DNA from: an uncultured Bacillota bacterium | GTDB lineage: Bacteria; Bacillota; Clostridia; Oscillospirales; Oscillospiraceae | Assembly: GCA_947573385.1 (NCBI GenBank) | Contig: CANPFP010000001.1 | Coordinates: forward strand, 18,946 to 82,945 | Direction of reading: 5' to 3' | DNA length: 64,000 nucleotides | In this document: positions 9,516 to 48,216 of the stretch, one piece after another | Position numbering within the stretch: position 1 is the stretch's first letter | Layout of the letters: each line of letters opens with the position of its first letter | Position numbers and translations under genes: made by a program | Notes under the pieces: generated by a model | Databases searched by the model: none | What the model was told of the DNA's origin: nothing | What the model saw: only the letters and a program-made list of their open reading frames with translations

Positions 9516-9638
9516 TTCCTGATATCAGGCGGGTTTTAGGCTGCCCTGGAACACTCCCCCGCCGTCCAGGGCATCAAAAAGCCCGCTGGGACGCGCAGCG
9601 GTGCCGCAGCGCAAATTTGATGTAACGAGGAGATTGGC

Positions 9639-11126: not shown

Positions 11127-11138
11127 GGAGGGATGGCA

Positions 11139-12128: not shown

Positions 12129-12141
12129 GGAGGTGTGAAGA

Positions 12142-13143: not shown

Positions 13144-13175
13144 CAACTTAATAGATCGGAAAGGTCGTGTCTTCT

Positions 13176-31655: not shown

Positions 31656-31664
31656 ACATACTTC

Positions 31665-31694
31665 AGCCCCCGGCTTTCGGCCGGGGGCTTTTTT
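31665..31694 (+). terminator. Terminator of the purine operon
   Basis: A perfect 10-bp stem (AGCCCCCGGC with its complement, loop TTTCG) followed by six T, beginning 10 bases after purD. Confidence 0.93.
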
Positions 31695-31758
31695 GCTCGA
31701 TATAAGGCTGAACCGCCCCAGTAAAAATAGAAAATGGCGCTGTTCAGTGATTGGGTAT

Positions 31759-31787
31759 GCCGGACTGCGTTTCCAGTCCAGTCCGGC
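31759..31787 (-). terminator. Hairpin ending the TRAP/sugar operon
   Basis: GCCGGACTG pairs with CAGTCCGGC around an 11-base loop, 50 bases past the stop of the hydroxyacid dehydrogenase read leftward. No T-run follows. The rest of 31695-31836 holds nothing I recognise. Confidence 0.45.
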
Positions 31788-31836
31788 GGTTGTGCGCAAC
31801 GTCATGGGGGCCGTCCATCTCCTAACCGATGTCTCT

Positions 31837-32796
31837 CTATAGCTGATTGACCGGATAGCCCGGCTTTTCGCCCCGTAAAACCGCTGCAACGTTTCGCGCG
31901 GACTTGATCTTCAGCTCCTCGACTGCCTCCTTGGTGCTGTATGCAGTATGGTCAGTAAGTACCACATTGTCCAATTCCCGATAGGGCGAGTCTCCGGGAA
32001 GAGGTTCAGTCCAATGGGTATCCAGACCCGCATACAGCAGTCTGTGATTTTTCAGCGCCTCCGTTAGTGCCTCGTCGTCCACCAGAGGGCCTCGGCCGGT
32101 ATTCACCAGGATGGCAGTAGGTTTCATCAGCGCCAGCGTCTCCCGGTTAATCAACTTAGTCGTGTCAGGGGTAACAGGCATGTGCAGCGACAAGAAGTCA
32201 CACTGGCGGAGGACTTCTTCCAGCCCCACCTTTTGGGCTCCCTGGGTCTCGCAAACCCCGGCGGACACATAGGGGTCATAGACCAGCACTTTGGAAAAGC
32301 CAAATCCGGAGGTCTTCTTGACCAGCGCCCGGGCAATGCGTCCAAAGCCCAGCACCCCCAACACCTTGCCCTGAAGCCGGAAGCTGGTGCGTTGGATGTT
32401 CCACTCCCCCTGCCGCACCAGCCGATCCCGCAGGGCTGTCTGCCGCAGACAGGTCATCATAAGAGCCAGGGCGTGATCAGACACATCCTCGGCGCAGTAG
32501 TCCGGCACGTTGGTCACCTGAATTTTCTTAACTGTACAGGCCTCAATATCCACATTGTCATAACCTACACCGTAACGGTTAATTATCTTGCATCGCTTCA
32601 GGCCCTGAACCGCCTTTGCCGTCATTGGTGCCATGTCCAGCAGAACAGCGTCCGCCTCGGCGCACTCCCGTACAACATCCTCCTCCGTCACACAGTCGCA
32701 CAGTCTCAATTCAGCGTCCGCCTGACCCAGGATTTCCTTCTCGATTTCATAGGAAGCATGCCGGGTATCCGATACACATACCAAATATTTGCTCAT
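31837..32796 (-). CDS. D-isomer-specific 2-hydroxyacid dehydrogenase
   Basis: 319 residues of the NAD-dependent D-2-hydroxyacid dehydrogenase family (phosphoglycerate/glyoxylate reductase-like). The NAD loop is VLGVLGFGRIARAL, the substrate-binding Arg lies in LVNTGRGPLVDDEAL, a Glu is near WTEPLPGDSP, and the catalytic His lies in LTDHTAYST. It would interconvert a 2-keto acid and a D-2-hydroxy acid. The ATG at 32796 has AGGCGG 8 bases upstream; the GTG at 32805 overlaps that site. It is the last gene of the leftward TRAP operon. Its substrate is not determinable, but it fits a pathway handling an acid sugar. Confidence 0.88.
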   Translation of the reverse strand: MSKYLVCVSDTRHASYEIEKEILGQADAELRLCDCVTEEDVVRECAEADAVLLDMAPMTAKAVQGLKRCKIINRYGVGYDNVDIEACTVKKIQVTNVPDYCAEDVSDHALALMMTCLRQTALRDRLVRQGEWNIQRTSFRLQGKVLGVLGFGRIARALVKKTSGFGFSKVLVYDPYVSAGVCETQGAQKVGLEEVLRQCDFLSLHMPVTPDTTKLINRETLALMKPTAILVNTGRGPLVDDEALTEALKNHRLLYAGLDTHWTEPLPGDSPYRELDNVVLTDHTAYSTKEAVEELKIKSARNVAAVLRGEKPGYPVNQL

Positions 32797-32808
32797 TGAC
32801 TTCACCGC

Positions 32809-33573
32809 CTATTTCACAAGATACCCGCCGTCGCAGGGAATGACCGCCCCATTGATGTAGTCAGAGGCCGGGGAAGCCAGGAAGATGGCCAAACCCTTCA
32901 TATCCTCCGAAGTTCCCCAGCGCTTAGCGGGGATACGGTTCGTGATCTCTCGGAACCTCGGGTTGTCCGGGTCAGTCAGTGCCGCATTCATGGGGGTATC
33001 CATATAGCCGGGAGCAATCGCGTTGATAGTGATGCCGTACTGCGCCCACTCGTTGCACAGCGCTTTGGTCAGTTGGGCCACCCCGCCTTTGGAGGCCGCA
33101 TAGGCCGGCACTGTAAAGCCGCCAAAGAAACTAAGCATGGACGCGATATTGATGATCTTACCGCCCCGTCCCTGGCGAAGCATTTGCCTGCCCGCCATTT
33201 GGCACAGAAGAAAGGTCACCGTCAGGTTGATATTCATCACGTCCTCCCAGTCCTGAAGGGGAAATTCCTCACTCTTGCTGCGTCGCTGGATACCAGCTGC
33301 GTTGACCAGCACGTCTATCTCTCCGTCCAGCAGCTCCAGGGCCCGGTTAAACCCCCGGGCCAGCTCATCATGGTCGCCCAAATCGCACTGCAGACCCCAG
33401 GCCTTCCAGCCTTTCTCCTGGTACCGGGCGGCCAGAACTGATGATTTGGACGAAGCCCCCACCATCACCACATGGGCGCCAGCCTCCAGCATCCCTTCCA
33501 CCATGCCCTGGCCCAAGCCGCCGCTGGCCCCGGTAAAGACCACTTTTTTCTCACTGATATCAAATAAATTCAT
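32809..33573 (-). CDS. SDR-family oxidoreductase, KduD-like
   Basis: 254 residues, classical short-chain dehydrogenase. The cofactor motif is TGASGGLGQG, the catalytic set is Asn in VNAAGIQRR, Ser in IINIASMLSFFGG and Tyr-x3-Lys in VPAYAASKGG. The sequence around IASMLSFFGG, NAIAPGYMDTPM and IPAKRWGTSEDM resembles KduD and gluconate 5-dehydrogenases. It would oxidise or reduce a keto/hydroxy position of a sugar acid or sugar. The start at 33573 has AAGGAAG upstream. It lies 12 bases before the hydroxyacid dehydrogenase gene. Confidence 0.88.
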   Translation of the reverse strand: MNLFDISEKKVVFTGASGGLGQGMVEGMLEAGAHVVMVGASSKSSVLAARYQEKGWKAWGLQCDLGDHDELARGFNRALELLDGEIDVLVNAAGIQRRSKSEEFPLQDWEDVMNINLTVTFLLCQMAGRQMLRQGRGGKIINIASMLSFFGGFTVPAYAASKGGVAQLTKALCNEWAQYGITINAIAPGYMDTPMNAALTDPDNPRFREITNRIPAKRWGTSEDMKGLAIFLASPASDYINGAVIPCDGGYLVK

Positions 33574-33677
33574 AGTCGCGCTTCCTTTTTTGATTGTCCA
33601 ACCTGCTTTCACAGTCCCTCCCCCTGACGGAGGGCGGAAACACAGGGGCAAAATCGAGTATTGTGATTCCGTGCCGG

Positions 33678-34559
33678 CTACTCCATGCTGAGATTCAGCG
33701 TATGAAGCAACCCCTTGAGGTAAGACACCGAGCGGGTCAGGTCCTCATCCACGCCATCCTTTACATACTCCCGCCACAGGCGGTGGTCGTTGCTCCATAC
33801 GCCGAAGGGCCTGGAGAAACACTCCATTGCCAAGGCACCCTGATAGCCCGCTCCGTGGAGAGCCATCAACACCTCACGCCAGTTGATATGCCCCATACCG
33901 GGCAGCTTGCGGTTGTTGTCACAGGCGTGGACGTTGACAATATGACTGCCCGCCTTCAGAATGGCCGCTGCCAGATCGTCCTCCTCAATATTCATGTGGT
34001 AGGTGTCCAGGTGGAGCCCCACAGCGGGGCTGTCTACCAGCTTCAGGAACTCCAGCCCCTGATCCACCGTGTTGAGCATGGTGTTCTCATACCGGTTGCA
34101 CATCTCCAGGCCCATCCGAACCCCACACGCCTGGGCAGTCCTGGCCATCTCCTGAACAGCCCGGGCGCTGTTCTCCATACGCCGCTGCCGGGTGGCGTTG
34201 TCCACCGGAACACCTGGCTTCAGAGTAGAGCCATGGATCATTCCGCCCACAACACCACCCCCCATCTCGGCCACCAGCTCGATATTCTGACGCATGGCGT
34301 CGATTCCCCTGGCACATTGGCTCGGGTCGCCGGAGGCAACATCGCCGTCCTGGGGAAGGGAGGTGCAGAAGGTATAGGTCAGCCCCAGTTCTTTGGCCGT
34401 TTTCACCGTCTCCCGCCGGATCTCCCCACTCTGTCTCACCAGGCGCATGGAGGACAGCTCCACATGGTCCGCGCCGTCCCGTTTGGCCCGGCGGAGTACC
34501 GCAGGCCAGTCCACTGTGTCCTGATAGGGAAAATATGCATAAAATACACCTACCCGCAT
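33678..34559 (-). CDS. TIM-barrel sugar epimerase/isomerase (AP endonuclease-like family)
   Basis: 293 residues of the xylose-isomerase-like TIM-barrel family that includes tagatose/psicose 3-epimerases, UlaE and IolE. The metal-binding set is visible: Glu in GLEMCNRYENTMLNT, Asp and His in GLHLDTYHMNIEED, a His in NVHACDNN, and Glu in GALAMECFSRP. It probably epimerises a ketose or phosphorylated ketose. The start at 34559 has GGAGGAG 8 bases upstream. A gap of 104 bp to the next gene shows nothing clear. Confidence 0.82.
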   Translation of the reverse strand: MRVGVFYAYFPYQDTVDWPAVLRRAKRDGADHVELSSMRLVRQSGEIRRETVKTAKELGLTYTFCTSLPQDGDVASGDPSQCARGIDAMRQNIELVAEMGGGVVGGMIHGSTLKPGVPVDNATRQRRMENSARAVQEMARTAQACGVRMGLEMCNRYENTMLNTVDQGLEFLKLVDSPAVGLHLDTYHMNIEEDDLAAAILKAGSHIVNVHACDNNRKLPGMGHINWREVLMALHGAGYQGALAMECFSRPFGVWSNDHRLWREYVKDGVDEDLTRSVSYLKGLLHTLNLSME

Positions 34560-34579
34560 GACCACATCTCCTCCGTTTC

Positions 34580-35500
34580 TCAGCGGTCCAGCAGGCGCAT
34601 GGCGCTGTCCGCAATGGACTGGGGATCAATGCCGTACAGCTTGGCCAGCTCCTCTGGGTCGCCGGAGCGCCCAAAGCGATCCTGAGACCCCAGCATCGCC
34701 ATGGGGGTGGGACAGCACCGGGCCAGCACCTCGCTCACCGCACCGCCCAGACCTCCCTGGACATTATGGTCCTCCACCGTGAGGACATGGCCGGTCTTTT
34801 GTGCGTAGTAGCGGATCATCTCCTGGTCGATAGGCTTGATGGAAGCCATGCTGATTACGGCAGCTTCAACACCTTCCCCGGCCAGAAACTCGGCGGCCTT
34901 GGCCGCCCGGTACACCACCTCACCCACAGCAATGATGGCCACGTCCTTGCCATCCCGAAGGACATTGCCTTTGCCAATTTCGAAGGCCACATGCTCAAAG
35001 AGAGAGGGCACTTCGGAACGACCCAGGCGCAGGTAGACCGGGCCATCGTGAAGCAGGGCGGCCTTGACGCAGGCCCGAGTTTCCGCGTCGTCGCAGGGAC
35101 ACAGAACGGTCATCTCCGGAATGGCCCGCATCAGGGCGATGTCCTCCAGGCACTGGTGGGAACCTCCGTCCCCACCGACCAAAATACCGCCGTGGGTTGC
35201 CGCAATAATAACGTGGTTATGGGGATAGGCGATGCTGTTACGGATCTGGTCATAGGCCCGTCCCGCCGCAAAGGCAGAGAAGGTGGAGGCAAACACCGGC
35301 ATGCCGCAGGTGGCAATGCCAGCTGCGTAACCATACATGTTGGCCTCGGCGATACCCATCTCAATAAAACGGTCCGGGAAGGCCTTTTTAAAGGTAATCG
35401 TCTTGGTGGCCTTGGCCAGGTCGGCGTCCATCACATAGAAGTCGTACTCGTTGGCCAGCTCTACCAAGGTATCCGCATAGGAATCACGAATTGCTTTCAT
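34580..35500 (-). CDS. Transketolase, C-terminal subunit
   Basis: 306 residues, the C-terminal half of a split transketolase (pyrimidine-binding plus C-terminal domains). Landmarks are FIEMGIAEANMYGYAAGIA with the catalytic Glu, FASTFSAFAAGRAYDQIRN, THGGILVGGDGGSHQ, and VEDHNVQGGLGGAV. It works with the N-terminal subunit encoded immediately upstream (1-base gap) to move two-carbon units between sugar phosphates using TPP. A dedicated transketolase in this operon suggests either an unusual substrate or a need for pentose-phosphate exchange. Confidence 0.92.
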   Translation of the reverse strand: MKAIRDSYADTLVELANEYDFYVMDADLAKATKTITFKKAFPDRFIEMGIAEANMYGYAAGIATCGMPVFASTFSAFAAGRAYDQIRNSIAYPHNHVIIAATHGGILVGGDGGSHQCLEDIALMRAIPEMTVLCPCDDAETRACVKAALLHDGPVYLRLGRSEVPSLFEHVAFEIGKGNVLRDGKDVAIIAVGEVVYRAAKAAEFLAGEGVEAAVISMASIKPIDQEMIRYYAQKTGHVLTVEDHNVQGGLGGAVSEVLARCCPTPMAMLGSQDRFGRSGDPEELAKLYGIDPQSIADSAMRLLDR

Positions 35501-35501
35501 C

Positions 35502-36335
35502 TTATACCCGCTCCTTCCCGTCCAGCTCAGCCATGGCCCGGTCAAGGACATCCTTTGTTACAGCTGCGCCGTGCCAATCTGCCCGGTCCTCCATGAAAGA
35601 GACCCCTTTCCCCTTTGTTGTATGACACAGAATGAACACAGGCTTATCAGAACACTTGGCCAGCTCCACGGCATGAATCAACTGAGGAATACTGTGTCCG
35701 TCTGTCTCAAGGACAGTCCATCCGAAGGCGCGGAACTTCTCGTCCATCGGGTAAATGTTCATAACATCATCCACTCTGCCGTCAATCTGCAGGTGGTTGG
35801 CATCTAAAAAGGCCACCAGGTTGTTCAGCCCAAAGTGGGCCGCACTCATAGCGGCTTCCCATATCTGCCCCTCGGCGCACTCCCCGTCACCCAGGATGCA
35901 GTAGACCCGAAAATCTTTTCCCTGCTTCTTGGCATACAGAGCCATGCCCGCAGCGGCAGACAGCCCCTGGCCCAACGAACCGGTAGACATATCAACCCCG
36001 GGGGTCTTTCCCATGTCCGGATGGCCCTGGAGGATACTGTCCGCCTTGCGCAGGGTATTGAGCACCTCCACATCGAAGTATCCCCGGCGGGCCAGGGCGG
36101 CGTAGTAGGTGGGACAGGCGTGGCCCTTGGACAGGACAAAACGGTCTCGATCTGCCCAATCAGGCTGCTCTGGACGGATATTCATCTCTTTAAAATACAG
36201 CACAGTAAGAATTTCTGTCATAGACATAGCTCCGCCGGGATGTCCGGAACCGGCATGATACAGGGCGGTCAGCGCGTCCCGGCGCAGTTGGAGGGCTGTA
36301 GCCTTCAGCTGACGGATTTCTTCCATTGTCGGCAT
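35502..36335 (-). CDS. Transketolase, N-terminal subunit
   Basis: About 277 residues, the TPP-binding half of a split transketolase. Landmarks are YHAGSGHPGGAMSMTEIL, FVLSKGHACPTYYAALA, GSLGQGLSAAAGMALYAKK and the TPP motif GDGECAEGQIWEAA ending in DANHLQIDG. The start is uncertain: the ATG at 36335 has AAAGGA about 11 bases upstream, while the ATG at 36368 overlaps the stop of the upstream permease gene (TAATG) and could be translationally coupled. The two would differ by 11 residues. Confidence 0.9.
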   Translation of the reverse strand: MPTMEEIRQLKATALQLRRDALTALYHAGSGHPGGAMSMTEILTVLYFKEMNIRPEQPDWADRDRFVLSKGHACPTYYAALARRGYFDVEVLNTLRKADSILQGHPDMGKTPGVDMSTGSLGQGLSAAAGMALYAKKQGKDFRVYCILGDGECAEGQIWEAAMSAAHFGLNNLVAFLDANHLQIDGRVDDVMNIYPMDEKFRAFGWTVLETDGHSIPQLIHAVELAKCSDKPVFILCHTTKGKGVSFMEDRADWHGAAVTKDVLDRAMAELDGKERV

Positions 36336-36367
36336 ATCAAACAAATTCCTTTCTATATGCTCTCTCA

Positions 36368-37669
36368 TTACAGAAGGGCAACCTCAAAACCGCACAGCGC
36401 AGGGATAAAAGTGACGATAGCGGGCGCAAAGGTGACGACAATCAAGGCCAGATAGGCAATAATGATGAAGGGGACAAAGGCCTTCACCACCGATCCGAAG
36501 GGCCGCTTTCCCACATTGACCGCAGTAAACAGTACCAGCCCCACAGGCGGAGTCAGCAGACCAATGGTCAGGTTCATAATGGTAACCATGGCCAGATGGA
36601 TGGGGTTGACGCCCACGCCGGTCAGCACCGGGCCAAGGATGGGAGCAAAGAGGATGATGGCCGCACCGGTGTCCATAATCATGCCCACAAAGATATAAAA
36701 GACGTTAACAATCATCAGCAGCACATACTTGTTGGTAGAAATACTGATGAGCAGAGCGGCGATAGCGTCAGGGACCTTTTCAATGGCTGCCACCCAGGAG
36801 AAAGCGTTGGCAAAGGCCACAATGAGCATCAGGTTGCCCACCGTCTTGCAGGCGTTCCACAGACAGTCCCGCAGGTCCTTCAACGTCATATTGCGGTAGA
36901 ACACGAAGCCTAGAAACAGGGCGTAGAGCACAGCCAGGGCGGCCGCCTCGGTGGCGGTGACATAGCCGCCCAGAATACCGCCGATGATGATAAGGGGCAG
37001 CATCATGGTGACAATTCCATCGGTTACGATCCGGCGGATTTCCCTGCCGGTGTACTTTCTCTCGTCTCGGGGAAAATTGCGTTTTTTCCGGATGGCGAGA
37101 ACATAGATGATCTGCGTCAGCGCGATAAGCAGCCCGGGACCTACACCCCCCATGAGCAGCGCACCGGCAGAGACATTCATCACGCCCGCATACACCATCA
37201 CGGTGGTGGACGGGGGAATCATTGGAGACTGAAGGGACGAGCCCGCGCTGATGGCGATGGCAAAATCTTTGTCATACCCCTGCTCTTCCATAGCTTCAAT
37301 CTCGATGACACCCAAACCGGACACATCAGCGATAGCAGAACCGGATACAGAGCCAAAAATAGTGCTGGCCACGATATTCACAAAGGCCAAACCGCCCCGA
37401 AACCGGCCCACAAACAGGCGGGCAAAGGCGAACAGCTTGGTGGTCAGACCGGTGCGGCCCATAATCTCAGCGGCCAGCACAAAGAACGGGATTGCCAGCA
37501 GCAGAAAGTTGTTGACGCCGGTGATGGACCGGTTGGGCAATACCTCCAGATATTTTGGGTTGACCAGCAGGATATAGAACACAGAGGAAAGCCCCATAGA
37601 ATAGGCAACAGGGATGCCGATACAGACCAAAACGATCAGTACCAAAACAGCGATACCAAAATTGATCAT
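36368..37669 (-). CDS. dctM: TRAP transporter large permease (DctM)
   Basis: A 433-residue membrane protein with about 12 hydrophobic segments, of the TRAP DctM family. Conserved regions include FFVLAAEIMGRTGLT, ASTIFGSVSGSAIADVSGLG, IPPSTTVMVYAGV, and LTPPVGLVLFTAVNVG. It couples Na+ or H+ influx to uptake of an organic acid delivered by the binding protein. It overlaps dctQ by 4 bases and its stop shares a base with a possible start of the transketolase gene. Confidence 0.95.
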   Translation of the reverse strand: MINFGIAVLVLIVLVCIGIPVAYSMGLSSVFYILLVNPKYLEVLPNRSITGVNNFLLLAIPFFVLAAEIMGRTGLTTKLFAFARLFVGRFRGGLAFVNIVASTIFGSVSGSAIADVSGLGVIEIEAMEEQGYDKDFAIAISAGSSLQSPMIPPSTTVMVYAGVMNVSAGALLMGGVGPGLLIALTQIIYVLAIRKKRNFPRDERKYTGREIRRIVTDGIVTMMLPLIIIGGILGGYVTATEAAALAVLYALFLGFVFYRNMTLKDLRDCLWNACKTVGNLMLIVAFANAFSWVAAIEKVPDAIAALLISISTNKYVLLMIVNVFYIFVGMIMDTGAAIILFAPILGPVLTGVGVNPIHLAMVTIMNLTIGLLTPPVGLVLFTAVNVGKRPFGSVVKAFVPFIIIAYLALIVVTFAPAIVTFIPALCGFEVALL

Positions 37670-38178
37670 ACAGACTCACTCTCCTCTTCAGGATCGAGCA
37701 GCAAAATGCCGCCAGCGGAGATCATTTGCAGGAAAGTGATCGTCATACCGGTAAACACAGCGGAGCGTACCAGCAACATAGGCAGCTGGGTGGTAGGCCC
37801 AACCTCATGGGTGGACACAGTGGTAAACACGATCAAAGATTTATAGGCAAAATAGCCGCTGAAGCCCAGCATACACAGCTTGTTAAAAATCCCCAGGCAC
37901 TTCCGGCCATTGGAGGAAAGCTTGTTATAAAAATAGTCCACGCGAGTGTAGGAAGATGTCTTCGCGATATGGCTCGCGCCCAGGAAGGTGAGCCACACCA
38001 GCAGCCAGCGGGCGATTTCTTCTGTCCAGGACAGGCCCTTGATAAAGGGAAGATAGCGCCCCAGTATCTGGAGCAGTACACAGATAACCACACAGGCCAT
38101 CATAAAAATCAGGAGACTTTTTGCCAGGGAATCCACAAAATCCATAAACTCCTGAAAAGCATTTCGTTTTTTGTCCAT
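37666..38178 (-). CDS. dctQ: TRAP transporter small permease (DctQ)
   Basis: A 170-residue protein with four hydrophobic segments and the DctQ landmark WTEEIARWLLVWLTFLGAS. It pairs with DctM in the membrane complex. GGAGGT lies upstream of the ATG at 38178. A stable hairpin separates it from the binding-protein gene. Confidence 0.93.
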   Translation of the reverse strand: MDKKRNAFQEFMDFVDSLAKSLLIFMMACVVICVLLQILGRYLPFIKGLSWTEEIARWLLVWLTFLGASHIAKTSSYTRVDYFYNKLSSNGRKCLGIFNKLCMLGFSGYFAYKSLIVFTTVSTHEVGPTTQLPMLLVRSAVFTGMTITFLQMISAGGILLLDPEEESESV

Positions 38179-38255
38179 AAATACCTCCAGTCATATACAG
38201 AACCTTTGTCTGTATTTCGAACCCCCTCTCAGGGGCCGGTTTGGGGTAAAAAGGG

Positions 38256-38288
38256 GCACGGCGGAATATCCTTTTTATTCCGCCGTGC
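38256..38288 (-). terminator. Hairpin between dctP and dctQ
   Basis: A perfect 13-bp stem (GCACGGCGGAATA with its complement, 7-base loop) followed, read leftward, by CCCTTTTTA. It lies 48 bases after the dctP stop and probably gives more binding protein than membrane subunits by partial termination. Confidence 0.75.
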
Positions 38289-38336
38289 AGTCGATTTCTC
38301 TCAATTACACCGCTTTTTCTATTCTGCGGGGCAGGC

Positions 38337-39536
38337 TCAGTCCTTCTTCTTGTTCTTGCTCATAGTATAGCCAGCAAAGAGCACAGCTACAACAGCCACA
38401 GCAATAGCTACATAGGTAATGGTATTCATACCACCAGTCGCGTTTCCGGCAGTGCCGAGTGTGGTGGACGCACCGGTCTCGGCTCCTGTCTTGACTGTCT
38501 CAACAGCGGCCATGAACTCATCTACGGTCTCGGCACCGATCTGCTCCTTCAGCCATTCAATTACTGGCTCCTGGCAGACGCGGAAGGTCTCCTTCTCCTC
38601 AGCGGTAGGGGCGTAGACCTCCATGCCGTTGTCCGCCAGGCTCTCCAGGGCCAGGGCCTCATTGGCACAGTTCCCGCCGCGCATGGCATATTGGGCGGTC
38701 TTGCCGGCATCAACCACGACCTTCTGCAGGTCGGCGGGCAGCTTGTTATAGAAATTGACGTCCATATACAGGAACACAGAGGAAATTGCGTGGCCATCCA
38801 GGACATAATACTTGTTCACTTCATGCACACTGGCGTTGAGGGTGGTACCTGGTGAGTTCTCCTGGCCGTCCACCACGCCGGTCTGAAGCGCACTGTACAG
38901 CTCAGTGAAGGCCAGAGGAGTGGCAGTAGCGCCGAAGGATTCCAGCATCTTGGCGTAGATGGGGGACTCCATGGTGCGAATCTTCATGTTGGCCATGTCA
39001 GCGGCGCTGTGGATTGGCCGGACGTTGTTGGAAAAGTTCCGGAAACCACCGTTGTCAGAAGCAGCCAGGGTCTTCAGCCCCAGCTTGGTCTCGATATCGG
39101 CATACATGGACTTCATATATTCGCTGTCCTGCATAGCATAAAACTCATCCCGGTTATTGAACAGGTAGGGGATAGACATGGCTTGGATATTAGGGTACAG
39201 CGTGGCGGTCTCGCCGTCGCCGCCCATGACACATTCCAGTGTGCCCTGCATACATTGCTGAAGGGCCTCCTGGGTGCTGCCCAGCTGGGCAGAGGGGTAA
39301 ATCTCCACGGTGATGCGGCCGCCTGAGTTGCTCTCGCAATAATTCTTAAAGGCCAGAGCGCCCGAGAAGATAAAGTCCAACGCGTTGTAGCTGCCCAGGC
39401 TGATCTCAGGGGCGTTGCCGCAGTATACCTTAATGGTATAGTTCTCGTTCGAGACAGCCATAGCAGTGGTGGACAGGCAGCCTGTCATCAGGGTCATCAC
39501 TGCCAGTATAGCCAATAATTTTTTTATCTTTTTCAT
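38337..39536 (-). CDS. dctP: TRAP transporter substrate-binding protein with C-terminal membrane anchor
   Basis: About 399 residues. The N-terminus is a signal sequence with a possible lipobox (LMTGC). The body is a DctP-type binding protein: GALAFKNYCESNSGGRITVEI, QLGSTQEALQQCMQG, and VRPIHSAADMANMKIRTME. The Arg in KIRTME is the residue that normally salt-bridges an acid substrate, so a carboxylate or sulfonate-type ligand is likely. Unusually, the protein ends with a Gly/Thr-rich linker, a hydrophobic helix (about residues 373-391) and SKNKKKD, a C-terminal anchor. Two adjacent ATGs, at 39539 and 39536, follow AAGGAGG; the second has the better spacing (7). Confidence 0.9.
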   Translation of the reverse strand: MKKIKKLLAILAVMTLMTGCLSTTAMAVSNENYTIKVYCGNAPEISLGSYNALDFIFSGALAFKNYCESNSGGRITVEIYPSAQLGSTQEALQQCMQGTLECVMGGDGETATLYPNIQAMSIPYLFNNRDEFYAMQDSEYMKSMYADIETKLGLKTLAASDNGGFRNFSNNVRPIHSAADMANMKIRTMESPIYAKMLESFGATATPLAFTELYSALQTGVVDGQENSPGTTLNASVHEVNKYYVLDGHAISSVFLYMDVNFYNKLPADLQKVVVDAGKTAQYAMRGGNCANEALALESLADNGMEVYAPTAEEKETFRVCQEPVIEWLKEQIGAETVDEFMAAVETVKTGAETGASTTLGTAGNATGGMNTITYVAIAVAVVAVLFAGYTMSKNKKKD

Positions 39537-39548
39537 CATTTTTCCTCC

Positions 39549-40751
39549 TTATTCTCTTATTAAAGCGTCTTTGACGCTAAAATAAGCTCTCCTGTTTTTG
39601 TCCCATTTCCAATATTCGGTTTCGAGTCCCTCTATTTTCTGTTTCTCCCACCCGCTTTCCACTCGCTCTAAAACGGATTGCTTTCCACATATCCCCTCAG
39701 CCCCCTGCGGGGACTCGATACGGCAGGCCGCCGCGCCGGAGGCCAGATGCAGGCTCTGCTCCGGGCACACCCCCTCCAGCACCCCTGTGAGAAAGCCCGC
39801 GATGGCGGTATCGCCCGCCCCATTCGTGGAACAGATCCGCGTCACGCGAAATGGCGGCTCCAAGATTTCCCGGTCCCACCATTCTTCTGTAATCCCGTCC
39901 TTCAGTGCGCCGAAGCTCCGAAAGGCTTCCGCGCCCGCGGTCCGAAGGTACATTCCTTTTTTACCCAGCTTCAGGCCAAACACTTTGACGCCCAGCTCCA
40001 GCACCTCATCCCCCAGTTCCCGCAGAATGTCAAGGCTGATATAGTCGATGGCATCCCCGTTTCCCGCGTGCTCCAGTATCTTCAAATAGCTGTCCTTGCG
40101 CAGCAGGAACAGCGTCTCCTCCATGCTGGGCAGAAATATATCCACATAGGGCAGCGTTCTGCCCAGGATTCCTTTCCAGTCCGCCTGTCCCGACTCGCTG
40201 GTCAGACCTGGCAGGCTCAAGTCCAGAGAGGTGGTCAGCCCAAGCTCCTTTACCCCCCGGTACAGCGCGCAAAGATTCTCTCCGCCGTCGGCGTACATGC
40301 ACCGCATCCCGGTGGGGTACCCGAAGTGAAACAGGTCCGACTGTTCCAGAACTTCCCTTTCCAGGGCGGCAAAGGAATACTTCTGGGAAGCTCCCCGCTG
40401 GTGCCAGAATATCCGGTCACTTCCCTTCGGTACAGTCACAATGGTGGCTGAGGTCCTTTCGTCCGGAATGGATGCCAGCTTATATGGTACGTCCGTCTGT
40501 TTCAGCAGGGCGCTTACCACCTCTCCCAGGGGATCGCCGCCCACCTTGCTGGTCAGCACTACGTCGCAACCCAGCCGGTGCATCGCCAGTCCAGTATTGG
40601 CCACCAGACCTCCCAGTGTCAGGTCAATTCCCTCAATATAGATGGTCTTGCCCTCCGCCAGCAGCTCATCCCGGCGGCAGGCCTCGTCCGGAAACCGGGG
40701 ACAAAGGTCCAACGCTATGGTTCCAGCCACCATAGCTCTGTGCCTGCTCAT
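39549..40751 (-). CDS. PfkB-family carbohydrate kinase
   Basis: 400 residues, long for the family (usually 300-330). Ribokinase-fold landmarks are the substrate Gly-Gly region TLGGLVANTGLAMHRLGCDV and KVGGDPLGE, plus the catalytic CSTNGAGDTAIAGFLTGV with the Asp base. The last about 60 residues (after ESPQGAEGI) form an extra Trp/Lys-rich tail of unknown role. It would phosphorylate a sugar or keto-sugar before the aldolase. It starts inside the end of the aldolase gene (ATGA overlap at 40748-40751), so the two are translationally coupled. Confidence 0.85.
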   Translation of the reverse strand: MSRHRAMVAGTIALDLCPRFPDEACRRDELLAEGKTIYIEGIDLTLGGLVANTGLAMHRLGCDVVLTSKVGGDPLGEVVSALLKQTDVPYKLASIPDERTSATIVTVPKGSDRIFWHQRGASQKYSFAALEREVLEQSDLFHFGYPTGMRCMYADGGENLCALYRGVKELGLTTSLDLSLPGLTSESGQADWKGILGRTLPYVDIFLPSMEETLFLLRKDSYLKILEHAGNGDAIDYISLDILRELGDEVLELGVKVFGLKLGKKGMYLRTAGAEAFRSFGALKDGITEEWWDREILEPPFRVTRICSTNGAGDTAIAGFLTGVLEGVCPEQSLHLASGAAACRIESPQGAEGICGKQSVLERVESGWEKQKIEGLETEYWKWDKNRRAYFSVKDALIRE

Positions 40752-41608
40752 GACTTGCTCCACGCCTTTCCAGAGGAACCAAGGGCCTGCATGTAGCCGC
40801 GCAGTGTACGGACTACCGCATCCTTACCGTGCTTCAACAGGATAGAATAGTCAATCCCGGGATTTTCCTCCAGTTCCCGGCGTACCTGCTCCCGGGCCTC
40901 AATGAGAAGCTCAGTGTTGATATTCAACTTTCGGATTCCCAACCGGGATGCCTTAATCAGGTTTTCCATTCCAGTCCCTGAGCCGCCGTGGAGCACCAGA
41001 GGAACATTTACCATCTTGTGAATTTCCTCCAACCGTTCAAAGTCCAGCTTAGGCGTCCCCTTGTACACACCATGAGCGGTACCTACCGCCACCGCCAGAG
41101 CGTCTACCTGGGTCTCCTCAGCAAACCGCTTCGCCACTTCCGGCTCTGTAAGCCCGTCCTTCACACCGTTTTCAGTGTAGTCCTCCCCCATCCCCACGTG
41201 GCCAATCTCCGCCTCTACGGAGATACCCAGCTCATGGGCAATCTTGACAATCTCCCGGGTTCGGGTCACGTTCTCCTCGTAAGGACACATGGACGCATCA
41301 ATCATCACAGAGCTGAACTCTTTCTGAATCGCCAGCACCAGCTCGTGGTAGCTCTTGCCGTGGTCCAGGTTGATACCCACGGGCACAGCTGTCTCTCTGG
41401 CTATCTGTCTGGCTATCACCGGCAGATATTTTTGCAGCCGCTCATCTTTCAGCCGGGATTCACCAATGGCGATAATCACAGGGGCCTGTTCCGCTTCGGC
41501 AGCCTCCACCACCGCAATCAGCGACTCCAGATTAAACACATTGGGAGCCAGAACCGTGTAGCCTTCCTGCTCAGCATGTCCCAGCAACTCCTTCAACGTT
41601 ACATACAT
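40748..41608 (-). CDS. Class II (zinc) aldolase, fructose/tagatose-bisphosphate type
   Basis: 286 residues. Zinc ligands and the active site of class II aldolases are visible: His in NLDHGKSYHELV, EAEIGHVGMGEDYTENG, VGTAHGVYKG, and LVLHGGSGTG followed by KLNINTELL. The family cleaves ketose 1-phosphates or 1,6-bisphosphates to DHAP and an aldehyde. Which one cannot be told, though the coupled PfkB kinase suggests it acts on that kinase's product. GAGGAG lies upstream of the ATG at 41608. Confidence 0.9.
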   Translation of the reverse strand: MYVTLKELLGHAEQEGYTVLAPNVFNLESLIAVVEAAEAEQAPVIIAIGESRLKDERLQKYLPVIARQIARETAVPVGINLDHGKSYHELVLAIQKEFSSVMIDASMCPYEENVTRTREIVKIAHELGISVEAEIGHVGMGEDYTENGVKDGLTEPEVAKRFAEETQVDALAVAVGTAHGVYKGTPKLDFERLEEIHKMVNVPLVLHGGSGTGMENLIKASRLGIRKLNINTELLIEAREQVRRELEENPGIDYSILLKHGKDAVVRTLRGYMQALGSSGKAWSKS

Positions 41609-41629
41609 TCTATCCAGCTCCTCTTTCTT

Positions 41630-42271
41630 TTACAGCCCCAGCACACCGCGGATGCAGGCGGCAATTTCCTCGTTCTGGCAGTTAGCAAAGAACATGTTAG
41701 GAAAGCTTTCCTCGGCAACGGTCTCCTTCAGGAAGTCCTGGTCAATATTTTTCAGCACATCCATAAAGTTGGCATGGGTAATGGTCTTTACCTGTTTGAG
41801 AATCTCCCGGTTTCTCTTCTCCGCTGCGGCCCACTCCGGAGGATAGCCGCCACCGGGTTCGGAGCCAAACAGCTTTTCAAACACATACTCCAAATTGACC
41901 TCGGCGCCCCAGCCGAAGTTCATAGCAAAGGGCATAGACAGGGCATTACCGGCATTTACCTGAGAAAACAGATAGGCGTCACAGGGGTCGTTAGCCCGCC
42001 CGCACGTTACACCGGGAAAAGCATTACAGGCCACCATGGCGCCCATACCGGTCCCACAGCCGGTGATGACAAAATCCGCTGCCCCAGAATTTAGCAGCAA
42101 AGCGGTCATCAGGCCAGCCTGCACATAGCTTCGCTCATGGGGATCCTCCGCAGAATAGCGGCCGTAGTTAAAGCAGGTATGTCCCATCGGTGTGACAGCT
42201 TTTTGCAACGTCTCAAAAATCAATGCATTTTTCGGTGCCTGACTGTTTTCATTTACCAGAGCGATCTTCAT
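41630..42271 (-). CDS. RpiB/LacA/LacB-family sugar isomerase
   Basis: 213 residues, longer than RpiB (about 150) through a C-terminal extension of about 60 residues after FEKLFGSEPGG. The active-site motif GCGTGMGAM at 71-79 carries the conserved Cys base, and NDPCDAYLFSQVNAGNALS is the second family block. Members isomerise aldose and ketose phosphates, and some act on four-carbon or unusual sugars. It is the first gene of the main leftward operon, behind a consensus promoter and palindromic operator. Confidence 0.85.
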   Translation of the reverse strand: MKIALVNENSQAPKNALIFETLQKAVTPMGHTCFNYGRYSAEDPHERSYVQAGLMTALLLNSGAADFVITGCGTGMGAMVACNAFPGVTCGRANDPCDAYLFSQVNAGNALSMPFAMNFGWGAEVNLEYVFEKLFGSEPGGGYPPEWAAAEKRNREILKQVKTITHANFMDVLKNIDQDFLKETVAEESFPNMFFANCQNEEIAACIRGVLGL

Positions 42272-42339
42272 TGCGTTCCTCTCCTAAACTGTTATCAATA
42301 GACTATCAATTCTCCTGATTACGCCCTCCCTCATTTGTT

Positions 42340-42353
42340 TGAAAGCGCTTTCA
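42340..42353. promoter_or_regulatory. LacI/cre-type operator upstream of the rpiB-type gene
   Basis: TGAAAGCGCTTTCA, a perfect 14-bp palindrome with the central CG typical of LacI-family sites. It lies 17 bp downstream of the -10 box of the operon promoter. The identical sequence occurs at 43292. It also matches the CcpA cre consensus, so either the adjacent LacI protein or CcpA could bind. Confidence 0.85.
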
Positions 42354-42370
42354 TTATTTTGACTGTTTTT

Positions 42371-42399
42371 AGTATAGCACAAATAAAATGTCACGTCAA
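42371..42399 (-). promoter_or_regulatory. Promoter of the main TRAP/sugar operon
   Basis: Read leftward: TTGACG (42399-42394), a 17-base spacer, TATACT (42376-42371), followed by the palindromic operator. Promoter strength and the downstream operator fit a repressed catabolic operon. Confidence 0.8.
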
Positions 42400-42480
42400 T
42401 TTAGCAAGAGCACTATATATTTTGATATATTTTTGTGTAAATTGTCCATCTTTGTCTGCCGCGTAGGTTGTTTATTGTTC

Positions 42481-42513
42481 ATAAAAACCACCCATAAAAT
42501 GAGTGGTTTTTAT
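42481..42513 (-). terminator. Terminator after the transaldolase gene
   Basis: ATAAAAACCAC pairs with GTGGTTTTTAT (11 bp) around an 11-base loop, giving T-runs on both strands. It lies 28 bases past the transaldolase stop. Confidence 0.8.
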
Positions 42514-42540
42514 GAAAATATTAAATAAAATGAAAGTTTT

Positions 42541-43227
42541 TCAGTCTATTAGCTCACACAAGCCAGTGGTTCCGTGAAGTTCTTGCCATGCATCATCGAA
42601 AAATTTGACAGCCTTTTCAATCTGCGGCATTTGCAAGGTCTCCTCCAATAGCTGAGGGTTCAATGTAACAGCCTGGCTGCCGGCGGCACAGACTTGGCAC
42701 AGCTGAGCCATATTCTTGATGTTGGCGGCCAAAATTTTTGTCTTTTTCCCCTCTTTCTCAATGGTGTCAGCCAACATCCGAATCAGTTCCCCTCCATCAA
42801 TGCCAATGTCACACATCTGGTCGTAATAAGGAGCAATAAAGTCCACGTCCAGCGCTAACGCCAAAAGAGCCTGCATCTGGGTCACCACCGCGGTAGCGGT
42901 AACGCGCACACCCCTTTGTTTCAGCTCCTTCATAGCCCGCATTCCATCCGGGGTAACTGGCACCTTAATACATATCCCGTTATCCACTTTCTCCAGCATC
43001 GTTATGGCTTCCCGGAGCATCTCATCGGCCTGGTGAGACACCACCTGCATGTGCAGCGTACGGTCTGGCCCGATGATCTGCCGCAGTTCCCGGAAGTGAG
43101 TAAAGGTATGCTCCACAATCCCTGCTTTTCGGATTAGGGCCGGGTTGGTGGTCACGCCTGTGTAGGCAAACATGTCCTTGTATCGGTTAATCAGGCTAAT
43201 TTCAGCGGTATCAAATAAGAACTCCAT
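42541..43227 (-). CDS. Transaldolase / fructose-6-phosphate aldolase-like protein
   Basis: 228 residues, the short class of the transaldolase family (FSA/TalC). The Schiff-base lysine is Lys88 in GICIKVPVTPDGMRA; YTGVTTNPALIRKAG and ILAANIKNMAQ are the other family blocks. It would cleave or transfer a dihydroxyacetone or hydroxyacetone unit. GGAGG lies upstream of the ATG at 43227. It is a separate single-gene transcript with its own consensus promoter and the same palindromic operator as the main operon, so it is part of the same regulon. Confidence 0.9.
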   Translation of the reverse strand: MEFLFDTAEISLINRYKDMFAYTGVTTNPALIRKAGIVEHTFTHFRELRQIIGPDRTLHMQVVSHQADEMLREAITMLEKVDNGICIKVPVTPDGMRAMKELKQRGVRVTATAVVTQMQALLALALDVDFIAPYYDQMCDIGIDGGELIRMLADTIEKEGKKTKILAANIKNMAQLCQVCAAGSQAVTLNPQLLEETLQMPQIEKAVKFFDDAWQELHGTTGLCELID

Positions 43228-43291
43228 ATTTTTCCTCCACCTTTATTTGTTTTTTGCTTCCACCCGCGAATGAATAGAAAGCATCTTATTT

Positions 43292-43305
43292 TGAAAGCGC
43301 TTTCA
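43292..43305. promoter_or_regulatory. LacI/cre-type operator upstream of the transaldolase gene
   Basis: TGAAAGCGCTTTCA, identical to the site at 42340. It starts 4 bp downstream of the -10 box, so it covers the probable transcription start. This placement is classic for repression. Confidence 0.87.
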
Positions 43306-43309
43306 TACA

Positions 43310-43338
43310 ATTATATCATAAATAAAATATCGCGTCAA
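43310..43338 (-). promoter_or_regulatory. Promoter of the transaldolase gene
   Basis: Read leftward: TTGACG (43338-43333), a 17-base spacer, TATAAT (43315-43310). The spacer is closely similar to that of the 42371 promoter. Confidence 0.85.
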
Positions 43339-43376
43339 TCAGTTATAAAACAATATTCCAACAATTTTATTTATAA

Positions 43377-43405
43377 AAAAACCACCTGCTATGCAAGTGG
43401 TTTTT
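43377..43405 (-). terminator. Terminator after the LacI-type regulator gene
   Basis: AAAAACCAC pairs with GTGGTTTTT around an 11-base loop, with T-runs. It resembles the terminator at 42481. It lies about 145 bases past the regulator stop; that stretch holds no gene I can support. Confidence 0.7.
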
Positions 43406-43548
43406 GAAAATTTAGAAAATGATGATTGAATTTTCGATTTGTTGAATCACACAGGTCACGGTCTCTATGAAATACAGGTCATTCCAAGGCCGAAAATGCA
43501 GCTCAAACTTTATTGCTGAATCTCCCTTTACTAACCCCGGCGCGTCTC

Positions 43549-44565
43549 CTATTCCTCTGGAGGTGCCGCACAAGATTCCCGGTACATAATGATACAATTG
43601 AGCTCCTCCCGCTTTCGCGGCATGGACCCCTGTTTTAAGCAGTCAATCAGAAGATGCATAGCCCGCTCCCCCTTTTCGTAGCTGGGCTGCCACACGCTGG
43701 TCAAGGGAGGCGACATATAAGCGGCAACCTTGGTGTCGTCAAACCCGATAACAGACACCTGGCCGGGGATCTCCAACCCGCAGTCCTTTGCTGCCTTGTA
43801 GACAGCCATGGCCGTTGAATCGTTAAAGGCCACCACGGCGGTCACCCGGGGATTTTGATAAAACAGGTGCTTGGCCAACTGCTCTGCCATCACCTCGGTC
43901 AGGTTTTCGCACACCTGCACCCACTCCTCCTGAATTGGGATGTTGGCACCCTCCATCGCCTGTCGGTACCCCGCCAGGCGGTCGCTGCAGGAGGCATACT
44001 CTGTTGATCCGACAATGATGCCGATACGCCGGTGACCCAGACCGATCAGATAATTGGTTACGCTGCACACCGCTTTCCGATCGTTGATATCTACCTGGCA
44101 GACCCCCTCCTCATCTCCATGGAAACTGCCAACCAGGACAAAGGGCATATCATTATCCCAGAGAACGCTAAGAAGATTGCTGCTCTCCTTTACCCCCATC
44201 AGAATGAACCCGTCCACCTTTTTCTCATAAAACAAGTTGCTGGCGCCTGTCTCGTCTTCGCTGATATCCAGCAACAGCCTGTATCCACTCTCTTTTGCCG
44301 CCACACTGATTCCCAGCAGTGCATTAATGTAGGTCTCATTCAGAAAAAAGTATTCTGGCCGATGGTTAATCAGTACGCCGATTGTTTTGGTCTGCTTTGA
44401 CTGAAGCTCTCTGGCGGAGGCCACAGGCCGATAATCCACGCAGGCAGCCTCCACCCTTCTCTTGGTAGATTCTTTCACCTTGGAACTGCCGTTGAGCACT
44501 CTGGAAACTGTGGAAATGCTGACCCCCGCTTCACGCGCCACATCGTAAATCGTTTTTTTCTGCAT
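43549..44565 (-). CDS. LacI-family transcriptional regulator
   Basis: 338 residues. The N-terminal helix-turn-helix reads TIYDVAREAGVSISTVSRVL with the hinge-side LNGSSKVKESTKRRVEAA, followed by a periplasmic-binding-protein-like sensor domain (GVLINHRPEYFF, GFDDTKVAAYMSPPLTSV). It most likely represses the leftward sugar operon through the two TGAAAGCGCTTTCA sites. I chose the ATG at 44565, where the family N-terminus begins; the frame upstream to 44592 adds nine residues. A TATAAT on the minus strand at 44641-44636 is a probable -10. Confidence 0.92.
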   Translation of the reverse strand: MQKKTIYDVAREAGVSISTVSRVLNGSSKVKESTKRRVEAACVDYRPVASARELQSKQTKTIGVLINHRPEYFFLNETYINALLGISVAAKESGYRLLLDISEDETGASNLFYEKKVDGFILMGVKESSNLLSVLWDNDMPFVLVGSFHGDEEGVCQVDINDRKAVCSVTNYLIGLGHRRIGIIVGSTEYASCSDRLAGYRQAMEGANIPIQEEWVQVCENLTEVMAEQLAKHLFYQNPRVTAVVAFNDSTAMAVYKAAKDCGLEIPGQVSVIGFDDTKVAAYMSPPLTSVWQPSYEKGERAMHLLIDCLKQGSMPRKREELNCIIMYRESCAAPPEE

Positions 44566-44592
44566 ATTCCCATCTCTTTTCGATCCAGACAT

Positions 44593-44979
44593 TTGGTTGC
44601 GGCCATTTTCCGCTTGTTATCGTTCTTATATACATATTATACTCCCCACCGACAAAATGCAAGAAACAAATGAAAAAACTTTCTTAATTGCTGTCTCTTT
44701 AAAACAGGCTCTAAACCTGCCAAGGGTTGTCACGGTTTGAAAGAAGAATAATTCAAGGAAAATTCAGACCACAAAAAGCATATTGCACAGGCTCATCTCT
44801 ACCAGTTAAAATAAGCTGTCCGCAAAAATATATAAGCAGACCTGTAATTCGGACATTTCTGTGACATTTTGGTTTTGCGACGGCTCCAGCCCCCGGTTCA
44901 GCCAGATCATCGTGATTATTACCATAACGAAGTTACCCGGCTTGCCGTCTCATTGCGCGGATTGAAGACGTCCGGACGG
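44593..44979. other. Non-coding gap
   Basis: 387 bp, AT-rich next to the LacI gene and mixed further on. Apart from the LacI promoter at its left end I see no gene, clear terminator, or repeat. It separates the leftward sugar island from the oxoacid dehydrogenase region. Confidence 0.6.
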
Positions 44980-45684
44980 TTACTCCGAGCCCGGGAGATG
45001 GCGATATGAAATTGCGATGCTCTCCCCCATTGCCGGAATGGTCACGGGGATGCCCCGGCAGCGGGACAGGGTGATTTCCACCGTCTGCCACAGGCCCTCC
45101 GGGTCGTTGTCCCGGGCGGGCAGGTGAAGGAGCACCAGCCGCTCAGGGGCCAGGCGCTCCACAATCCGCCATGCGGCGGGGGTGGCGGCGTAGGCAAAGG
45201 GGGCAAGGAGCACGTCCGGCCGGATGGAACAGCCCTCCCACTGGGTGGGGGCGGCGTCCCCTGCAAAGAGGAGCCGCCGGGAGCCCTCAATCAGCAGGCT
45301 GCTGTGCTCCAGCGTCCGGTAGGCCGCTCCGATGTGCCGGGACGGGATGGGGGTCACGGTAACACCCCCAGCAGACACCCCCTCCCCCACCGTCACCGGC
45401 CAGGGGGACAGGGTTTCCCTCACCGCCCGGGTACCCAGCACCGGGGGGCCGCCCCAGGCGTAGAGACACTCCTGCGCTCCGTCAGGGTCCAGGTGGTCGG
45501 GGTGGGCATGGGTGAAGGCCGCCAGGTCCACCCGGCGGCCCGCCAGCTCCTCCAGCAGGGCTGGCGGGGTGGGCAGATAGGGGCCTACCCCGCCGCATAT
45601 CCCATCCAGCAGGACGGCAATCCCGTCCAGCTCCAGCAGTCCGCCGGCGTTGGCCGTCCGGGTAAATCGAAACTGTGCTCCCAC
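44980..45684 (-). CDS. MBL-fold metallo-hydrolase
   Basis: About 234 residues with the metallo-beta-lactamase motif THAHPDHLDP (H-x-H-x-D-H) and later metal ligands PIPSRHIGAAYR and LFAGDAAPTQ. The N-terminal FRFTRTANAGGLLELDG is typical of a Firmicutes UlaG-like group of unknown function. The start is uncertain: the usable codons are a GTG at 45684, inside the 3' arm of a hairpin, or a GTG at 45720, overlapping the end of the E1 gene. It runs downstream of the E1 gene in the same direction. Confidence 0.75.
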   Translation of the reverse strand: MGAQFRFTRTANAGGLLELDGIAVLLDGICGGVGPYLPTPPALLEELAGRRVDLAAFTHAHPDHLDPDGAQECLYAWGGPPVLGTRAVRETLSPWPVTVGEGVSAGGVTVTPIPSRHIGAAYRTLEHSSLLIEGSRRLLFAGDAAPTQWEGCSIRPDVLLAPFAYAATPAAWRIVERLAPERLVLLHLPARDNDPEGLWQTVEITLSRCRGIPVTIPAMGESIAISYRHLPGSE

Positions 45685-45705
45685 CCCCTGTGGGGGTGGG
45701 AGCAC
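45675..45705 (-). terminator. Hairpin after the E1 gene
   Basis: A perfect 14-bp stem (GTGCTCCCACCCCC with its complement, loop ACA on the minus strand) begins 8 bases after the E1 stop. No T-run follows. It overlaps the likely start of the MBL gene, so it could end the operon or mask that start. Confidence 0.6.
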
Positions 45706-45712
45706 AACGCTT

Positions 45713-48184: not shown

Positions 48185-48216
48185 GGTGATTTCCTCCTTA
48201 TAATTTTGCATCGTCA

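Follow-up and report, generated by a model that had tools for sequence, protein, structure and literature searches.

Here, we analysed a 64,000-nucleotide stretch of DNA (the window; assembly GCA_947573385.1, contig CANPFP010000001.1, positions 18,946 to 82,945) from an uncultured bacterium of the family Oscillospiraceae (Bacillota). Translation of the window places thirteen open frames, all on the minus strand, between positions 31837 and 44592, in the transcription order lacI, fsa, rpiB-long, class II aldolase, pfkB, dctP, dctQ, dctM, tktN, tktC, 3-epimerase, short-chain dehydrogenase/reductase (SDR) and D-2-hydroxyacid dehydrogenase. Tentatively, and with somewhat less than even confidence, we propose that this LacI-controlled operon turns a sugar acid into a 2-ketose, phosphorylates it at C1 and splits it into dihydroxyacetone phosphate (DHAP) and a three-carbon acid aldehyde, as a carboxylate counterpart of the second sulfo-Embden-Meyerhof-Parnas pathway (sulfo-EMP2). 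Sequence comparison provides the basis in the form of the gene set, a private palindrome, a pairing of kinase and aldolase genes, changed pocket residues in the aldolases and acid-binding residues in the importer; from these we infer what the substrate is, how many carbons it has, in which order the steps run and that a reduction comes last. Protein families were assigned by NCBIfam and Pfam, the latter run on ten proteins, with LacI, DctQ and DctM assigned by other scans. These families and the open frames agree with the thirteen kinds of gene listed in the original prediction, a model's note made from the DNA letters, including its split transketolase (TktN and TktC are two separate frames) and its two aldolase types (PF01116 and PF00923).

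Central to the proposal is the PfkB-family kinase, which also serves well as a marker. Among 99 genomes (the host and 98 relatives), a 94% identical copy together with the same cluster was found in one further genome of the same genus (G016); the next matches, three kinases of 35-41% identity, lie in other gene settings. At E ≤ 1e-30 the family occurs in 7 of 394 genomes of the order, host included. A collection of genome contigs gave at least 593 matching stretches, at least 564 of them encoding relatives of the kinase, from which we took the best 80; with L034-L037, L034 being the near-identical relative, these make up 84 kinase loci (L034-L117). A DHAP-type aldolase lies no more than 6 kb from the kinase in 47 of the 84, namely one of class II in 28 (L034 counted) and one of the class I DeoC/LacD type in 19. 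Both classes stand beside the kinase in none of the 84 loci and neither class in 37, several of them on short contigs, and in L039 a class II aldolase sits about 6.7 kb away, outside the limit. The neighbouring genes were clustered into groups present in at least four loci, by which rarer aldolases could be missed, and the 84 loci share history through related species and are not independent events. For a kinase that produces a ketose 1-phosphate, one would expect just such an alternation of two unrelated DHAP-aldolase types beside it, and this pairing lends support to the conversion to triose that had been predicted. The kinase family carries no NCBIfam name, and across L034-L117 its neighbours are often lyxose isomerase, xylose-isomerase-like or glycoside hydrolase family 38 (GH38) genes. 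A scan of viral contigs yielded no kinase relative, as none of 24 pattern matches was confirmed.

Both aldolases of the operon differ from their relatives at residues that bind the C6 phosphate there. We aligned the class II enzyme with 28 other copies linked to the kinase (L034 excluded) and with solved structures. At the two Arg positions of the C6-phosphate pocket of class II aldolases, the window copy has Leu and Lys. Fructose-bisphosphate aldolase of T. aquaticus (1rv8) and 8q57, presumably SqiA, have Arg at both sites, and in YdjI of E. coli, whose annotated function is that of an L-glycero-L-galacto-octuluronate-1-phosphate aldolase, they hold Cys and Arg. Among the 28 kinase-linked copies, L106 is illegible at both sites because its sequence is incomplete; in the other 27, the first site holds Arg once (L088) and Lys once (L042), and the second holds Arg in three (L042, L047, L053). 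A further class II copy, L184, has neither basic residue. Compared with the Cys/Arg of YdjI, the Leu/Lys of the window enzyme suggests that it is at least as similar to an aldolase acting on an acid-ended tail as to one that binds a phosphate. The protein of the fructose-6-phosphate aldolase (FSA) type has Gln for Arg and Asn for Ser at the phosphate site of E. coli FsaA and keeps the Tyr, for which two transaldolase-like copies have Phe. Its gene is the only PF00923 match found in the host assembly.

That the substrate is acidic is suggested by the importer of the tripartite ATP-independent periplasmic (TRAP) type and by two enzymes. DctP keeps R167, R188 and N228, an Arg-Arg-Asn set which PMC11668362 describes for carboxylate binding in 4P47 numbering, and would thus bind an acid; the conserved Arg had already been noted in the original prediction. 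It has Thr89 where relatives commonly have an acidic contact, and its C-terminal segment, read by eye, is hydrophobic and ends rich in lysine. Across 391 genomes of the class, the two nearest relatives of DctP (42% and 39%) stand beside genes for proteins of the dihydrodipicolinate synthase (DHDPS) family, for oxidases linked to flavin adenine dinucleotide, and for electron transfer flavoprotein; the surroundings of two weaker relatives (34-35%), judged by eye, are different. RpiB-long, with a PF02502 match of 65.4 bits and a member of the long DUF3666 subfamily, has its best solved relative in 4u8e (gbs1892 of S. agalactiae, 294.9 bits over residues 1-212), which we take to be DhuI. The substrate given for DhuI in PMC12838403 is a six-carbon acid, 4-deoxy-L-threo-5-hexosulose uronate (DHU). 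With E. coli KduD the SDR shares 44% identity, and it reaches 285.7 bits against the NCBIfam KduD model, whose cut-off is 338.85. We fetched 24 relatives of RpiB-long (21 of 22 matches in the order, the other being the host, and all three further places in the phylum): ten have an SDR 37-40% identical to that of the window within 1.5 kb, as counted from raw open frames, and none has a match above 60 bits to the window kinase, aldolases or transketolase within 4 kb. The Arg-Arg-Asn set and the relatives of RpiB-long and SDR, which act on six-carbon acids, are in favour of the acidic sugar of the original prediction. Nothing was found for the branched-chain sugar that it offered alongside, and no apiose model is among the NCBIfam hits listed.

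The operon also appears to possess its own regulatory signal. Two perfect copies of a 14-base palindrome, TGAAAGCGCTTTCA, each lie directly 3' of a promoter-like site (11/12 and 10/12) whose -10 box is TG-extended. At up to two mismatches the window contains two matches against 0.13 expected, and at up to one mismatch there are just these two sites per assembly in the host (2.53 Mb, 81% complete) and in G016, with no control matches. Being restricted to the operon, TGAAAGCGCTTTCA is most simply, and probably, the private operator of the adjoining LacI protein, which makes the case for the predicted matched operators stronger than originally put. CcpA was considered as reader of the palindrome for its cre-like look; the lack of a further copy at up to one mismatch favours the local LacI. 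Promoter-like sites number 21 in the region against 8.8 in shuffles, and terminator-like hairpins 9 against 12.3, no more than chance. The presence of promoter-like sites and palindromes before both fsa and rpiB-long suggests more than one transcription unit.

The split transketolase seems to be a less essential member of the set. It has Arg, Ala, His and Arg at four compared columns, the same as the presumed housekeeping copy on contig 50 of the host. The pocket motif of sulfofructose (SF) transketolase is RAFDR, with Asp for His (PMC11659671); this His-to-Asp change is absent from the window enzyme at the four columns compared, those of R, A, D and R. In a C-subunit tree the window transketolase joins the ordinary clade on a long branch (local support 0.84); four rows were left out (two DXS-like proteins of 628 residues, a divergent row and a repeat of the window copy), and L118, L140 and L144, whose transketolases are of the one-chain type, are outside the C-subunit set. 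G016 lacks the stretch matching window positions 34801-36349, so that tktN and most of tktC are gone. The other eleven genes show no insertions or deletions between host and G016 and have ratios of nonsynonymous to synonymous substitution (dN/dS) of 0.01-0.18; they are under purifying selection. The transketolase is thus not needed for retention of the operon, as far as one incomplete assembly tells, and the predicted flow to pentose phosphates through a dedicated transketolase is weakened by both the ordinary pocket residues and the deletion. At least two further split transketolases are present in the host assembly. Twelve matches to the transketolase N-terminal family, one of them weak, were found in Faecalicatena contorta (G452, the genome behind L047).

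How might these proteins work together? Judging by the conserved residues of DctP, the importer would bring in an acidic monosaccharide, for which a sugar acid of six carbons is the likeliest candidate. Going by their relatives, RpiB-long would convert the aldehyde acid to the 2-ketose, to which the SDR and the 3-epimerase would also bring related aldonates or epimers. The kinase would add a phosphate to C1 of this ketose, and the 1-phosphate would then be cleaved by the class II aldolase into DHAP and an unphosphorylated three-carbon acid aldehyde; starting from a hexuluronate, this aldehyde would be tartronate semialdehyde. The D-2-hydroxyacid dehydrogenase may reduce the aldehyde directly or after isomerisation to hydroxypyruvate, a donor for transketolase, and the latter enzyme, dispensable as it is, would connect the carbon with the pool of pentose phosphates. 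The FSA-type aldolase may allow cleavage without phosphorylation. A more specific version, possible in our judgement though doubtful, is a phosphorylative uronate glycolysis, in which a hexuronate would become a hexuluronate (with RpiB-long in place of UxaC), be phosphorylated at C1 and yield DHAP and tartronate semialdehyde, the latter being reduced to glycerate. UxaC had no match in either genome carrying the cluster, and since these are 81% (host) and 77% (G016) complete, absences in them are soft; the isomerase of the operon could stand in for UxaC. In the literature covered, mostly outside subscription journals, we found no paper dealing with a kinase for fructuronate or tagaturonate or with a 1-phosphate of either.

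According to PMC9594981, sulfo-EMP2 (SqvD, SqiK, SqiA) phosphorylates a 2-ketose with an anionic tail at C1 and cleaves it with a PF01116 aldolase into DHAP and a three-carbon anionic aldehyde. We propose the same chemistry for the window by analogy, the aldolase being shared at the family level only. The window differs in its PfkB kinase (PF00294) instead of a PfkA-type SF kinase (PF00365), in the absence of an SqvD isomerase (PF02952) from the ten proteins scanned with Pfam, in TRAP uptake and in its aldolase pocket residues, and it has no sulfolactaldehyde reductase or dehydrogenase of a known family, just the SDR and the D-2-hydroxyacid dehydrogenase. A PfkB kinase and a class II aldolase for an acid-ended ketose are also found in E. 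coli YdjH and YdjI (annotated as octuluronate kinase and 1-phosphate aldolase), and the corresponding genes are adjacent in the window. YdjI is 36.5% identical to the window aldolase over 282 residues but YdjH just 21% to the kinase over 329, and the ydj stretch has no annotated TRAP, epimerase or RpiB gene, unlike the window. The DhuI/DhuD and KduI/KduD systems resemble the window in the DhuI kind of RpiB-long and the nearness of the SDR to KduD, whereas the operon adds kinase, aldolases, epimerase and transketolase, and no GH88 match was found. Split transketolase, isomerase and enzymes of the transaldolase family share one locus in the bifurcated cluster of Faecalicatena for the sulfo-transketolase (sulfo-TK) and sulfo-transaldolase (sulfo-TAL) pathways as well; compared with this cluster (PMC11659671), the window has an ordinary transketolase pocket, no sulfoquinovose (SQ) isomerase, an acid TRAP importer and an added kinase and class II aldolase. 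With sulfo-TK in general it shares a split transketolase and a PF02502 isomerase, the latter of the long DUF3666 subfamily. The D-glucuronate TRAP protein STM3169 has the same Arg-Arg-Asn set, while DctP has Thr89 at the usual acidic contact and the acid of STM3169 goes through UxuABC (PMC7660916).

But, what speaks against a kinase-aldolase route for a sugar acid? The cluster was found in only two of the genomes searched, both incomplete assemblies, and we know of no characterised member of the kinase family, whose operon copy has as its best solved relative a 2-keto-3-deoxygluconate (KDG) kinase, weakly (40.7 bits). Many relatives of the kinase adjoin lyxose isomerase or GH38 mannosidase genes, which suggest neutral sugars at those loci. 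7ncc, a solved aldolase of the fructose-bisphosphate type, has Gln and Arg at the two sites, so the first site alone does not tell; the YdjHI-type pattern (no first Arg, basic second residue) fits the window enzyme but also 7ncc, which makes this test weak. Lys at the second site occurs in none of the 27 legible kinase-linked copies and has no precedent in the set. In NCBIfam the class II protein scores as a ketose-bisphosphate aldolase and the FSA-type protein as a fructose-6-phosphate aldolase, both above cut-off, which counts against loss of phosphate binding, and the proposed route does not account for the presence of two aldolases. No tartronate-semialdehyde reductase type is among the operon proteins scanned with NCBIfam and Pfam. 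Three DHDPS-family proteins encoded near the closest DctP relatives were scanned and two of them score above the dapA cut-off, leaving a sugar-acid link of that context uncertain and suggestive at most. Lastly, a KduD-like SDR shares the operon with a DhuI-family isomerase, and DHU, the substrate described for DhuI, is a 4-deoxy acid that is unable to undergo the proposed aldol cleavage.

This last point leads to the main rival, which we consider rather unlikely: scavenging of DHU from other microbes, in which TRAP uptake would be followed by RpiB-long as DhuI and the SDR as KduD/DhuD to give KDG. KDG kinase and 2-keto-3-deoxy-6-phosphogluconate (KDPG) aldolase would then be encoded elsewhere in the genome, and kinase, aldolases, epimerase and transketolase of the operon would serve a second substrate. 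The full-length similarity of RpiB-long to gbs1892, the KduD-like identity of the SDR and the ten of 24 loci at which both families are neighbours fit this scheme, as does the weak likeness of the operon kinase to a KDG kinase. KDPG-aldolase-family genes occur in both genomes, two of them on host contig 83 together with a KDG kinase-like gene that stays below the KDG-kinase cut-offs. However, while DHU scavenging accounts very well for two enzymes, it has no use for the others: kinase, both aldolases, epimerase, transketolase and dehydrogenase would be without a job. The SDR stays under the KduD cut-off, its gene is not adjacent to that of the isomerase, and PF07470 (GH88, unsaturated uronyl hydrolase; presumably covering GH105 too) had no match in either genome carrying the cluster, so that DHU would need an outside source. 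We also consider improbable an ordinary catabolism of aldonates or ketogluconates, with the SDR as 5-ketogluconate reductase, the dehydrogenase as 2-ketoaldonate reductase, and transketolase and aldolases as the lower part of a route into the pentose phosphate pathway. The identities to IdnO (39%) and GhrB (32%) and the ordinary type of transketolase are consistent with it, but no gluconate kinase or 6-phosphogluconate dehydrogenase is among the operon proteins, the kinase-aldolase pair, epimerase and RpiB-long would be unused, and the transketolase is dispensable, as its deletion in G016 indicates.

Neutral sugars would account for the sugar isomerases adjoining relatives of the kinase and for an epimerase of the tagatose/psicose 3-epimerase kind. 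A route for a neutral rare or branched ketose (tagatose, allulose or apiose type) is nevertheless quite improbable given a TRAP importer with acid-binding residues, RpiB-long and SDR relatives that act on acids, and no sugar importer of the ATP-binding cassette (ABC) type or phosphotransferase system among the thirteen genes. For D-apiose, a combined-term search of the literature covered yielded no paper, and no apiose reference sequence was compared. A sulfosugar route combining sulfo-EMP2, sulfo-TAL and sulfo-TK involves the same reaction types and families (kinase, class II aldolase, transaldolase/FSA family, split transketolase, PF02502 isomerase), and yet we regard it as highly improbable. 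The window transketolase has His where SF transketolase has Asp, the kinase belongs to PF00294 and not PF00365, and no PF02952 isomerase, iron alcohol dehydrogenase, beta-hydroxyacid dehydrogenase-type reductase or aldehyde dehydrogenase is among the operon proteins. Near the position of Tyr153 in the isethionate protein IseP, DctP has Asn163 (Gly164 by plain counting) and not Tyr, and a separate sulfo-TK-like locus exists on contig 14 of the same genome. Sulfoglycolysis as such was therefore set aside, being contradicted by residues of the transketolase and unsupported by those of the TRAP protein.

The locus on host contig 14 (L152, 9555-18414) encodes a tripartite tricarboxylate importer (TctC was assigned by Pfam, its other parts by eye), a split transketolase with the His-to-Asp change, a short RpiB and an iron alcohol dehydrogenase, and is similar to the lower part of sulfo-TK; we recognised no SQ isomerase in this stretch. 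The same transketolase and short RpiB are present on contig 8 of G016 (L127). Another mixed locus lies on contig 21 of the genome behind L039 (G451; L150, 3995-16140), where RpiB-long, a class II aldolase and a PfkB kinase (24% identical to that of the window) occur with an SftI-like isomerase (145.8 bits against a cut-off of 700), a one-chain transketolase, a GH4 protein and an aldehyde dehydrogenase above the cut-off for methylmalonate-semialdehyde dehydrogenase. It is perhaps a branched route for sulfosugars or uronates.

Features of the operon, with positions in the window
Feature	Position	Strand	Remarks
LacI-family regulator	43549..44592	-	start 44592 or 44565; dN/dS 0.01 vs G016
Promoter-like site 5' of fsa	43310..43338	-	TTGACG-17-TATAAT, extended -10
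Palindrome 1, TGAAAGCGCTTTCA, proposed operator	43292..43305	.	sequence searches
FSA/transaldolase-family aldolase	42541..43227	-	PF00923; NF009299 238.8 bits, cut-off 214
Promoter-like site 5' of rpiB-long	42371..42399	-	TTGACG-17-TATACT, extended -10
Palindrome 2, TGAAAGCGCTTTCA, proposed operator	42340..42353	.	sequence searches
Long RpiB-type isomerase, 213 aa, DhuI family	41630..42271	-	PRK09273/DUF3666, 304.6 bits, cut-off 137
Class II aldolase	40748..41608	-	PF01116; TIGR00167 254.1 bits, cut-off 215.6
PfkB-family kinase, 404 aa, proposed ketose 1-kinase	39549..40763	-	PF00294; under all NCBIfam cut-offs listed
TRAP solute-binding protein DctP	38337..39539	-	acid-binding residues kept
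Terminator-like hairpin between dctP and dctQ	38256..38288	-	hairpin scan, at chance level
TRAP small permease DctQ	37666..38178	-	weak YiaM match, 32 bits
TRAP large permease DctM	36368..37669	-	family scan
Transketolase N-terminal subunit (tktN)	35502..36368	-	NCBIfam/Pfam; missing in G016
Transketolase C-terminal subunit (tktC)	34580..35500	-	ATG at 35500, open frame from 35551; mostly missing in G016
Ketose 3-epimerase family, tagatose/psicose 3-epimerase-like	33678..34565	-	NF051856 213.2 bits, below cut-off 300
SDR	32809..33573	-	44% identity to KduD, 39% to IdnO (E. coli)
D-2-hydroxyacid dehydrogenase	31837..32805	-	32% identity to E. coli GhrB

The flanks are housekeeping in look and were named by eye: a purD-like gene (30399-31655) at one end, and a metallo-hydrolase-like frame with a fused dehydrogenase E1-like gene (44980-48232) at the other. 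No Rfam family reached its gathering threshold in 31000-46000. A second possible sugar operon, likewise seen by eye, lies at 6246-14042 of the window and comprises a regulator, a ROK-type kinase, an ABC sugar importer and a shikimate-dehydrogenase-like gene.

If the kinase-aldolase route for a sugar acid proves true, its host would burn sugar acids by the logic known from sulfosugars, gaining one DHAP per acid without the KDG route. The phosphorylative uronate glycolysis, if real, would bypass that Entner-Doudoroff-type route as an exact carboxylate counterpart of sulfo-EMP2. The proposed route would also provide a first function for a kinase family whose members in Bacillota, Chloroflexi, Spirochaetales and other groups have DHAP aldolases as neighbours.

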